Source of the DNA: an uncultured Clostridia bacterium
Lineage (GTDB): Bacteria; Bacillota; Clostridia; Christensenellales; UBA1750
DNA length: 64,000 bases
Reading direction: 5' to 3'
NCBI GenBank assembly: GCA_904393115.1
Contig: CAJFMX010000003.1
Coordinates: 1-64,000 of the forward strand
Every line of letters starts with the position of its first letter. The first letter of the stretch is position 1. Shown piece after piece: positions 32,082 through 35,063 of this stretch. A program made the translations under genes and the position numbers. The notes under the pieces are model-generated. The model saw only the letters and a program-made list of their open reading frames with translations. It had not been told where the DNA came from and ran no database searches.

Positions 32082-33050
32082 ATGCAGATGCCCTGGATCT
32101 TGCAGAGCGCCGTGGAGCGCGAACTGGAGGGCTGCCCGGCGCAGGCCGTGCGCGCCGCGGCGCTCGACCTCTCCCGCAGGTATCGGGAGAGCGGGCGGGC
32201 GCCGGACGGCGCGCGCCTTGCGCGCAGCGCGGAGGAGGTGCGCGCCTATGCGGCCTTCCGCATGCCGGCGACCTATGCGGCGGTATCGCGCGCGCTGGAG
32301 ATCGCGCGGGAGGCCGGCCTGCCCGGCGCGCAGACGCTCACCGACGTCGGCAGCGGCAGCGGCAGCGCCTTCTGGGCCGTGCGCCAGGCCTTCCCGGCGC
32401 TTGCGCAGGCGCGCCTGCTGGAGCGGGAGGCCGGGATGATCGCCCTGGCCAAGCGCCTTGCCGCGGAGCAGGAGGGCTGCCGCGTGGAGTGGATCGCGGG
32501 GGACATGCGCCAGACGCCCATCCCGCCGGCGGACCTTGTCACGGCCTCCTACTGCCTGGGCGAACTTCGGCCGGAGGACGCAGAGACGGTGGCGCTGCGG
32601 CTCTGGGAGGCCGCGGGCCGCGCGCTGCTCCTGGTGGAACCGGGCACGCCGGAGGGCCACGCGCGCATCCGGCGCTATGCGGGCCTGCTCGCGCAGCGGG
32701 GCGCGCAGATCCTCGCGCCCTGCCCCCGGGGAACGGAGGCCTGCCCGCTCGGGGACGCGGACTTCTGCGCCTTCACGGTGCGCGTGGAGCGCACGCGCCT
32801 GCACCGCTTCCTCAAGGACGGCGAGCTGCCCTACGAGGACGAGAGCTTCTCCTTCCTGCTGGCCGCGCGGGAGGCGGGCGCGCCGCCGGCGGCGCGCGTG
32901 CTGCGGCGGCCCCGCGTCCACTCCGGGTTCGTGGAGCTCTCCCTCTGCCGGGCGGGCGGCGCGGCCTGGGAGAAGGTGACCCGCAAGAGCCCCGGCTTCA
33001 AGCGCGCGCGCAAGGCCGAGCCTGGCGACGGCTGGGGGGAGGGGACCTAG
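32082..33050 (+). CDS. Rsm22-like SAM-dependent methyltransferase
   Basis: A 322-residue methyltransferase. The N-terminal AYAAFRMPATYAAVSRAL segment and LTDVGSGSGSAFWA (SAM motif I), then LVTASYCLGEL and LLLVEPGTPEGHARI, match the Rsm22 family of small-subunit ribosomal methyltransferases. The start at 32082 lies nine bases after GGAGGG; a second Met follows two codons later. Its TAG overlaps the TAG of the convergent ABC-F gene within CTAG. Confidence 0.85.
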   Translation: MQMPWILQSAVERELEGCPAQAVRAAALDLSRRYRESGRAPDGARLARSAEEVRAYAAFRMPATYAAVSRALEIAREAGLPGAQTLTDVGSGSGSAFWAVRQAFPALAQARLLEREAGMIALAKRLAAEQEGCRVEWIAGDMRQTPIPPADLVTASYCLGELRPEDAETVALRLWEAAGRALLLVEPGTPEGHARIRRYAGLLAQRGAQILAPCPRGTEACPLGDADFCAFTVRVERTRLHRFLKDGELPYEDESFSFLLAAREAGAPPAARVLRRPRVHSGFVELSLCRAGGAAWEKVTRKSPGFKRARKAEPGDGWGEGT

Positions 33051-34483
33051 AGCCCGAGCGACTCCTCGGCAAAGCGCGCAAAGTCCTGCTGGACGAGGCG
33101 GAGCGCGCCGCCGCGCAGGTCGAGCACGCTCGTGCAGAGCCTGCGCAGCAGGTAGAGGTCGTGCGAGGCGATCAGGAGCGTGCCGTTGTAGCTGGCCAGC
33201 GTCTCCTCCAGCTGCTCGCGCGCGGGCAGGTCCAGGTGGTTCGTTGGCTCGTCCAGCAGCAGGAAGTCCTCCTGGCGCAGGATGGCCATGGCGAGCTTGC
33301 ACTTCATCTGCTCGCCAAAGGAGAGGGCGCGCGCGGGCTGCGCGAGCTGGCGGGACGTGAGCCCCAGGTTGTTGAGCAGCCTGCGCTCCGCGCCGCCGAC
33401 CGTCCCCAGCTCCGCCTGGAGCAGGGCGAGCACGGTCTGCTCCGTATCGGTGAAGGCGAAGTCCTGCCGGATCAGGCAGGGCCGCGCGCTGGGCGAGACC
33501 CAGAGCTCGCCCTCGAAGGACTCCTCGCCGGCGATCATGCGCAGCAGCGTGGTCTTTCCCGCGCCGTTTTCGCCAAAGAGCGCCACGCGGTCCCCGCCGC
33601 GCAGGGCAAAGGACGCGCCGGTGAACAGCGCGTGCGCGCCAAAGCGCTTGCCAAGGTCCTTCGCCTCGAGGATGCGGCGGCTGTGCGCGCTCTGGCCCTC
33701 GATTTCGAAGCGCACGCGGCGCTCGGCCTTGGGGCGCTCGGGCGCGGCCTCGCGCATCCGCTCCAGGCGGCGGATGTCGTTTTTGACCTTTTTGTCCATC
33801 TTTTTGGCGCTGGCGCGCCGCTTTTCCTTTTCGCCCATCTTCAGGCCGCTGGAGGGCGCCTCCGTGGACTTGCGGTGCGCGGTCTGGGCGCGCTGGCGCA
33901 GGGCGGCGATGTCCTCCTCGAGCGCGCGCTGGCGCCGCTGCCCGACCTCGTACTGGTGGAGCTGTTCCGCGTAGCGCTGCGCCTTCTGCGCGCGGTAGTC
34001 GGAGTAGCCGCCCGCGTATTCCGTGAGGCGGCCGTCCGCAAGCTCCAGGATGCGGTCCGCGGCGGCGTCCAGGAAGTAGCGGTCGTGGGAGACGACGAGC
34101 GTCGCGGCGCGCAGCGCTTGCAGGCGCTGCAGGAGGTAGGCGATGTTGCGCGCGTCCAGGTGATTGGTCGGCTCGTCCAGGAGGAGCAGGCCCGGCTGCT
34201 GGGCGAGGACCGCGTCCAGCGCCGCGCGGGTGCGCTCGCCGCCGGAGAGCGCGTCCGCGGCCCGCTGCTCCTGGCGCAGGAAGCCCAGCGCGCAGGTCGT
34301 GCGCACAAGGCCGGAGTCCGGCAGGAGCTCGCCGGCGATCAGGCGCAAGAGCGTGGTCTTGCCCGCGCCGTTCGGGCCCACAAGGCCCACGCATTCGCCG
34401 GTTTCCAGGGAAAAGGAGAGATTGTCCAGCAGGGTTCTGTCGCCCAGCGACAGGGTGAGGTTGCGAACGAGAAGCAGCGGCAT
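33047..34483 (-). CDS. ABC-F family ATPase, possible ribosome-protection protein
   Basis: A 478-residue protein with two ABC domains and no membrane part. Walker A motifs are GPNGAGKT (about 36-43) and GENGAGKT (about 300), signatures LSGGERTR and LSFGEQMK, with LLLLDEPTNHLD and its second copy. The linker is long and basic (KKMDKKVKNDIRRLERMRE). ABC-F proteins act on the ribosome; short two-domain members with leader attenuation often give resistance to macrolides, lincosamides or pleuromutilins. ATG at 34481-34483 is seven bases from GGGGG; an earlier ATG at 34487-34489 is too close. Regulation by attenuation is suggested by the leader. Confidence 0.88.
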   Translation of the reverse strand: MPLLLVRNLTLSLGDRTLLDNLSFSLETGECVGLVGPNGAGKTTLLRLIAGELLPDSGLVRTTCALGFLRQEQRAADALSGGERTRAALDAVLAQQPGLLLLDEPTNHLDARNIAYLLQRLQALRAATLVVSHDRYFLDAAADRILELADGRLTEYAGGYSDYRAQKAQRYAEQLHQYEVGQRRQRALEEDIAALRQRAQTAHRKSTEAPSSGLKMGEKEKRRASAKKMDKKVKNDIRRLERMREAAPERPKAERRVRFEIEGQSAHSRRILEAKDLGKRFGAHALFTGASFALRGGDRVALFGENGAGKTTLLRMIAGEESFEGELWVSPSARPCLIRQDFAFTDTEQTVLALLQAELGTVGGAERRLLNNLGLTSRQLAQPARALSFGEQMKCKLAMAILRQEDFLLLDEPTNHLDLPAREQLEETLASYNGTLLIASHDLYLLRRLCTSVLDLRGGALRLVQQDFARFAEESLGL

Positions 34484-34506
34484 GTGCATTCCCCCAAAAT
34501 ACAAAA

Positions 34507-34528
34507 CGTCCCCGCGCAGGCGGGGACG
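34507..34528 (-). terminator. Intrinsic terminator just ahead of the ABC-F start (attenuator)
   Basis: Leftward, GTCCCCGC and GCGGGGAC form an 8-bp stem with a CTGC loop, followed by GTTTTGTATTTT and then the ABC-F ribosome site 11 nt further. There is no complete gene for it to terminate, so it most likely attenuates the ABC-F transcript. Confidence 0.75.
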
Positions 34529-34760
34529 GAGAATTCAGCCGCAAAGGGCGCAGAGGCGCGCAAAAAAACAGGCGGGCAAAATCCTTCCGCACACCCCATT
34601 CTGCGCGCAGGCAAAGCAGGCCCCTTTTCGCGAAAAAAGGGAACGCTTCACCCAGGTTCAGAAATGAGTGCGTCGGTTAGATCTTCCTCATGCCTGTCCT
34701 ATGCCCTCCTCACTTGGAAATCTTCCGCTTCAGGATACAATGCGCGGCGCGCGCTGTCAA
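34529..34760 (-). promoter_or_regulatory. Promoter and leader of the ABC-F gene
   Basis: Leftward TTGACA (34755-34760) and TATCCT (34732-34737) are exactly 17 bp apart; the -35 shares bases with the stop codon of the ACT gene. The leader of roughly 200 nt contains a four-codon ORF (ATG 34689-34691 to TAA 34677-34679, MRKI) preceded by AGGAGGG 12 nt upstream, and a CCCTTTTTTCGCGAAAAGGG stem-loop near 34620-34642. Such a short reading frame could sense stalled ribosomes. Confidence 0.65.
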
Positions 34761-34987
34761 GAGGCAATTTCGCAGCCCGCGGCCTCCAGCGCACGCCAGC
34801 CGTCCTCGCGCGCCAGGGCGTCCGCGGGCGCCCTCGCGCTTTCGCACACGAGGGAGAGTTCCTCGTCCGTCCGGGAGAGGAAGGCCAGGCGGCCGGATTC
34901 GTCCACGCCGGAGGCAGAAGCGATGCGGCAGACGGAATACGCCCCCGGAAAGACGCGCAGGCGAAGCACGGCAGGGGAAGAAGCCAT
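34757..34987 (-). CDS. Half-length ACT-domain-like protein
   Basis: A 76-residue protein resembling the first half of CASTOR-type tandem ACT proteins (VFPGAYSVCRIA, FLSRTDEELSLVCE, then DGWRALEAAG). The second ACT unit usual in the family is absent: the protein stops a few residues after GWRAL. AGGAGGGATTCC precedes ATG 34985-34987. It may be a genuine short form or a truncated remnant; nothing homologous follows in the next 80 bases. Confidence 0.7.
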   Translation of the reverse strand: MASSPAVLRLRVFPGAYSVCRIASASGVDESGRLAFLSRTDEELSLVCESARAPADALAREDGWRALEAAGCEIAS

Positions 34988-35063
34988 GGAATCCCTCCTG
35001 TTTTCAAGCGTTTTGCGCAAACGAAAAGGCGGCGCAGCGCGCCGCCTGTCGGTCGGTGAAAAA

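Follow-up and report, generated by a model that had tools for sequence, protein, structure and literature searches.

An ABC-F gene in an uncultured Clostridia bacterium lies behind a putative VmlR-type attenuator with a four-codon upstream reading frame

The window analysed here, a 64-kb stretch of DNA from an uncultured Clostridia bacterium of the order Christensenellales, carries an ABC-F ATPase gene on its minus strand, preceded by a promoter, a structured leader with a short upstream open reading frame (uORF) and a terminator. The features of the locus are as follows:

32085–33050, plus strand: gene for an Rsm22-like methyltransferase (PF09243, E 9e-60), convergent with the ABC-F gene and overlapping its end
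33047–34483, minus strand: ABC-F ATPase of the VmlR clade, 478 aa, two ABC domains (NF000355, PDB matches, tree)
34496–34528, minus strand: predicted intrinsic terminator, CGTCCCCGCCTGCGCGGGGACG (stem 34528–34507) with tail TTTTGTATTTT (34506–34496)
34526–34542, minus strand: GCGGCTGAATTCTCCGT, candidate antiterminator partner strand extending into the terminator foot (masked-uORF folds)
34562–34568, minus strand: T7 tract immediately 3' of SL-1, read from the sequence
34568–34699, minus strand: SL-1, long hairpin containing the uORF, putative anti-antiterminator (z −4.96; pairing in five leaders)
34594–34568, minus strand: 3' strand of SL-1, GTGTGCGGAAGGATTTTGCCCGCCTGT
34677–34691, minus strand: uORF ATG AGG AAG ATC TAA, four codons, MRKI
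34705–34711, minus strand: Shine-Dalgarno (SD)-like GAGGAGG for the uORF, 13 nt 5' of its ATG
34507–34725, minus strand: leader RNA of about 220 nt, its start placed from the promoter (fold z −5.12)
34732–34760, minus strand: sigma-A-type promoter from the promoter scan, TTGACA (34760–34755), 17 bp, TATCCT (34737–34732)
34757–35020, minus strand: ACT-like (A9CJY8-like) gene, shortened to 87 aa from the 121–122 aa seen elsewhere

An earlier note, made from the letters of this DNA, had described a promoter, a leader with a four-codon frame and an alternative stem, and a terminator hairpin with a T run just before the ribosome site; each of these was recovered. The promoter matches the consensus at 10 of 12 positions, and the 1.2 kb scanned held 2 promoter-like sites compared with 0.1 expected from shuffles. 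The 220-nt leader folds 5.1 standard deviations better than its shuffles, none of 200 being equally stable, and SL-1 by itself has a comparable score (z −4.96), so that the alternative stem appears to be real. Eight of the nine pairs in the terminator stem are G-C, and its T-rich tail is followed on the minus strand by an SD-like GGGGG and the ABC-F start codon at 34483. Terminator-like sites are not rare (2 seen, 1.3 expected), and the terminator alone is thus not strong evidence. SL-1 together with its T7 tract was also scored as terminator-like in the upstream scan (−12.9 kcal/mol); judged from sequence, the tract might serve either as a pause site or as a first terminator.

The encoded protein passed the general model for ribosomal-protection ABC-Fs, NF000355 (411 bits, cut-off 380), and exceeded the curated cut-off of none of the named NCBIfam resistance families (Vga, Msr, Lsa, Sal, CplR, OptrA), scoring 320.8 against 725 for Vga. 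Its best PDB matches were VmlR2 (8buu, E 4e-106) and VmlR (6ha8, E 5e-98). Two loci from other genomes served as named references because of their own matches: L037, from Bacillus tequilensis, matches 6ha8 at E 9e-290 and is VmlR itself, and L034, from Sutcliffiella horikoshii, is close to VmlR2 (E 1e-188 to 8buu). In a quick maximum-likelihood tree with SH-aLRT supports, the query and its family members fall with VmlR and the VmlR2 relative in a 33-row clade (support 99) nested in a 41-row clade (support 100), and the remaining ABC-Fs of the query genome lie outside. By sequence comparison, the query protein is thus a member of the VmlR/VmlR2 (ARE2) clade, apart from other ABC-Fs. The query and its closest relatives are 478–509 aa long, as against 544–650 aa for most VmlR-clade proteins, and seem to have no C-terminal extension.

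This placement bears on whether the leader might be a true attenuator of a housekeeping ABC-F, acting for example in rescue at difficult sequences, with the uORF reporting general translation defects. The vmlR gene is also induced by ribosome-assembly defects (PMC9226507), which, with the failure to pass any named resistance cut-off, would suit such a role; the protein groups with VmlR and VmlR2, away from the other ABC-Fs of its genome, and, unlike a housekeeping factor, it gave no close orthologue in genome G008 or in most of the order sampled. We regard a housekeeping role as unlikely. Recent acquisition of a mobile gene was also considered and set aside: the best plasmid match, at 39.5% identity, gives no sign of recent transfer, yet genome G006 carries the gene in another context.

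Within the family, orthologues occur in three further genus members (61, 58 and 55% identity) and in one member of another genus (44%); at the same threshold, G008 and the remainder of the sampled order yielded none. All four relatives have TTGACA at the same place, exactly 17 bp from a −10 box (TATGCT, TATGCT, TAAAAT, TATACA), four-codon uORFs (MIKI, MLMI, MMKF, MRKN) and a U-run terminator 5' of the ABC-F start. The 13-nt spacing between the uORF SD and its ATG is long and counts against the proposed reading; vmlR spacing is similarly long, at 15 nt in Bacillus, and the four genus members have 13, 13, 13 and 14 nt. A search for the uORF with its distant SD returned a single site in the query genome and, in three other genus members, one site apiece linked to an ABC-F gene, besides a single unrelated hit; reversing the pattern as a control returned none. 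Genomes G009 and G007 share the order ACT-like gene, M23 peptidase, leader, ABC-F gene and convergent Rsm22-like methyltransferase, the last of which is thus a neighbour there as well as at the query locus. In G006 and G001 the leader and ABC-F gene stand in other contexts, which indicates that the leader travels with the gene. An ordinary leader for some other signal (an amino acid, a tRNA or a metabolite riboswitch), its uORF coincidental, would be unsurprising insofar as terminator-controlled leaders are common in Bacillota. Set against this are the conservation of the four-codon uORF and its pairing in five genomes, the persistence of the leader beside the ABC-F gene in changed surroundings, and the lack of any Rfam family (riboswitch, T-box or other leader) at gathering score within the 64-kb window; we give such a leader hardly any credence.

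In all five leaders, nucleotides 9–13 of the uORF (codons 3–4) pair with RNA about 60–100 nt downstream. The pairs, in the order G000 (the query genome), L030, L031, L032 and L033, are:

nt 9: G-U, G-U, G-C, G-U, G-C
nt 10: A-U, A-U, A-U, U-A, A-U
nt 11: U-A, U-A, U-A, U-A, A-U
nt 12: C-G in all five
nt 13: U-G, U-G, U-G, U-A, U-G

Two positions show two-sided compensatory changes, nt 10 from A-U to U-A in L032 and nt 11 from U-A to A-U in L033, and owing to these double changes the stem is kept although codon 4 varies (I, F, N). Because the five sequences were aligned by hand, this covariation is a suggestion and not a statistical result. Equivalent pairing involves codon 3 and the stop of the MIN uORF in Bacillus vmlR. 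The fold of SL-1 in L031 is unremarkable (z −1.3). Since the uORF residues vary while the pairing is kept, the pattern fits sensing at initiation and not peptide-specific arrest.

To model the switch, transcripts truncated within the terminator loop were folded both with the uORF free and with it covered by a ribosome, whose footprint size, like the fold energies, is approximate. When the P site was set at codon 1 of the query uORF, TCCGT in the foot of the terminator became more strongly paired to RNA upstream of it, from 0.24–0.48 to 0.80–0.99; setting it at codon 3 gave a weak shift, to only 0.40–0.63. Masking the uORF raised the corresponding pairing of TTCGT in L030 from 0.07–0.70 to 0.82–0.89, of TCCGT in L031 from 0.22–0.68 to 0.93–1.00, and of AATCC in the Bacillus vmlR control from 0.06–0.99 to 1.00. 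The partner of the terminator foot is the SL-1 3' strand in each of these, and the switch to the antiterminator therefore appears in three of the five family leaders and in the vmlR control; L034, the VmlR2 relative run as a further control, gave no switch in masked-uORF folds. In L032 and L033 the foot of SL-1 itself adjoins the U-run, a more compact form, and by the folds these two leaders seem to use SL-1 itself as terminator. In L033 (positions 1030–1280, genome G001) the SD and start codon of the uORF make up an arm of a stem adjoining a U8 tract, so that a ribosome would sit on the terminator itself. In the query the antiterminator invades no more than the bottom 3 bp of the terminator stem, and the complete leader with its uORF masked still folds with the terminator present; the switch thus depends on the order of co-transcriptional folding. 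Because the complete leader folds in this way, the pre-terminator transcript was chosen, which is the physically relevant stage and also the more favourable test.

To set these findings against chance, upstream regions of ABC-F genes were scanned for an ATG uORF of 3–8 codons with an SD and a terminator within 140 nt of the gene. Such leaders precede 27 of 43 ABC-Fs of the query (VmlR) clade, as against 2 of 75 that are more remote and 1 of 215 upstream regions after dinucleotide shuffling, with a Fisher p of 2e-13; it is the between-group comparison that carries weight, the rule having been fixed after the query was seen, and the counts are not fully independent because some loci are identical or nearly so (L036/L122, L150/L151). 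The simple scan misread some loci, among them L036/L122, the same sequence truncated at 341 aa, and two loci without a start. With the low controls, the presence of the arrangement in all four family relatives that have the gene and in 27 of 43 clade genes indicates, at the level of sequence, that the architecture is not due to chance.

Several ABC-F genes are known to be controlled in a related manner. In vmlR, experiments showed that drug-stalled ribosomes on the uORF block an anti-antiterminator, so that an antiterminator can form and RNA polymerase escapes termination; inducers are lincomycin and virginiamycin M, and erythromycin is not an efficient one (PMC9226507). Consensus uORFs are MIN for VmlR, MK[L/Q] for VmlR2, MR[I/M] for CplR and MAGN for LsaA, and drugs acting just after initiation are proposed to stall ribosomes on uORFs as short as these (PMC10201436). 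Like the query, Bacillus subtilis vmlR has a leader of about 220 nt with a distant SD and a very short uORF in SL-1, an SL-1 3' strand common to the uORF pairing and to the antiterminator at the terminator foot, and a terminator directly before an ABC-F gene of the same clade. It differs in its uORF (MIN, not MRKI), in its longer protein (547 as against 478 aa) and in its SL-1 of 84 nt, that of the query being GC-rich and longer (137 nt) and followed at once by T7; there is no close sequence identity. VmlR2 leaders share the short uORF, distant SD, terminator and VmlR-clade protein, with different uORFs (MK[L/Q], PMC10201436, or MWN in L034 from S. horikoshii), and the switch was not reproduced in L034. 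A short uORF likewise controls the ABC-F genes lmo0919/vgaL of Listeria and lsaA of Enterococcus (MAGN, PMC10201436), which belong to other ABC-F subfamilies and were set against the query by description.

Clostridioides difficile cplR, induced by lincomycin and retapamulin (PMC10201436), also combines a uORF hairpin with a terminator; its uORF is MR[I/M], its protein is of another subfamily, and its terminator stem hides the SD. For cplR, uORF attenuation with translational control was shown experimentally, stalling rather than premature termination being essential (PMC10201436). This precedent raises the prospect that the query leader acts mainly by concealing the ABC-F ribosome-binding site, with termination secondary, and in the fold TGTATTTT can indeed pair with GGAATGCA around the ABC-F start region. 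That hairpin is weak, however, and no counterpart was seen in L030, whereas the terminator is strong, with a T-rich tail 5' of the gene SD and a stem that leaves the SD out. Mainly translational attenuation is accordingly quite improbable in our estimate.

What computation shows, then, is a set of conserved elements, a uORF pairing that covaries and a modelled switch. The earlier proposal of an attenuator-type leader stands as the best explanation, with conservation, covariation and modelled switching in agreement, and the leader is very probably a VmlR-type transcription attenuator responding to drug-stalled ribosomes on its four-codon uORF. By analogy, the mechanism is most likely the one already known from Bacillus vmlR and Clostridioides cplR, of which this leader would be a new example. 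For transcription start, stalling, readthrough, drug spectrum and resistance, we infer the following course. RNA polymerase would initiate near 34725. Without drug, a ribosome would soon complete or leave the uORF, SL-1 would form with uORF codons 3–4 paired to AAGGATTTT, and transcription would stop at the terminator (34528–34507). A drug that stalls the ribosome as it initiates on the uORF, or directly afterwards, would keep the uORF from pairing; the freed SL-1 3' strand CGGAAGGATTTTGCC could then pair with GGCTGAATTCTCCG, removing the terminator foot from the T-run, and polymerase would continue into the ABC-F gene, whose product would remove the drug from the ribosome.

Within this attenuator, SL-1 and its T7 might constitute a first terminator blocked directly by the stalled ribosome, the second being controlled through the antiterminator, an idea we hold only tentatively. 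It is similarly doubtful that the SL-1 arm 5' of the AUG would then form part of the first terminator's stem, and we would put no greater trust in L032 and L033 as one-terminator forms with the ribosome placed directly on the stem of the terminator.

Because the VmlR-type leader matches the vmlR scheme in every testable feature, lincosamides, pleuromutilins and streptogramin A, which stall at or just after initiation, would be expected to induce. Erythromycin is an unlikely inducer, since the short, varying uORF is unlike a macrolide arrest peptide and vmlR responds to it poorly (PMC9226507). The suggestion that the protein is an inducible resistance factor is strengthened by its place in the clade of the experimentally studied VmlR and VmlR2, with erythromycin as a reservation.

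A literature search for this leader type with Christensenellaceae returned nothing. With the present leader, VmlR-type attenuation, investigated in Bacillus and bacteria related to it, would reach into a GC-rich Bacillota lineage, in which an inducible intrinsic resistance factor is predicted. What could raise the case above the routine is the T7 following SL-1, by which the uORF hairpin might act as a first terminator, and the variety of leader types that the clade contains. Other Bacillota VmlR-clade ABC-Fs have longer leaders with normal SD spacing, and their uORFs share the ending [FIT]LA(x)-stop. Examples, by locus and position, are:

L120 876, L124 808, L127 871, L036 2621, L153 955
L126 864, L147 825, L143 1002, all on the minus strand

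The peptides include MRRIFLAF, MRICFLAG, MRISFLAR, MRICFLAS, MINLFLA, MRKCILA and MHKRTLA; because their alanine codons vary (GCA, GCT, GCC), there is a hint of selection on the peptide and perhaps of a different inducer. Together, the three-codon, four-codon and LA-ending leaders form a set for relating uORF sequence to inducer spectrum, a follow-up called for in PMC10201436.

A CCGCAAAGGGCGCAGAGG-like stretch at 34539–34561 looked repetitive, but a dispersed repeat was rejected, the leader being single-copy in the genome (best other match 36 bases, E 6e-4). The region of the shortened ACT-like gene was compared with L030 (1–1230) and L031 (1–1225). The M23 peptidase of G009 and G007 is absent from the query locus, the rest of the genome offering no more than a partial match at 33%, and the junction sits just 5' of TTGACA; a deletion has therefore probably joined both ends.
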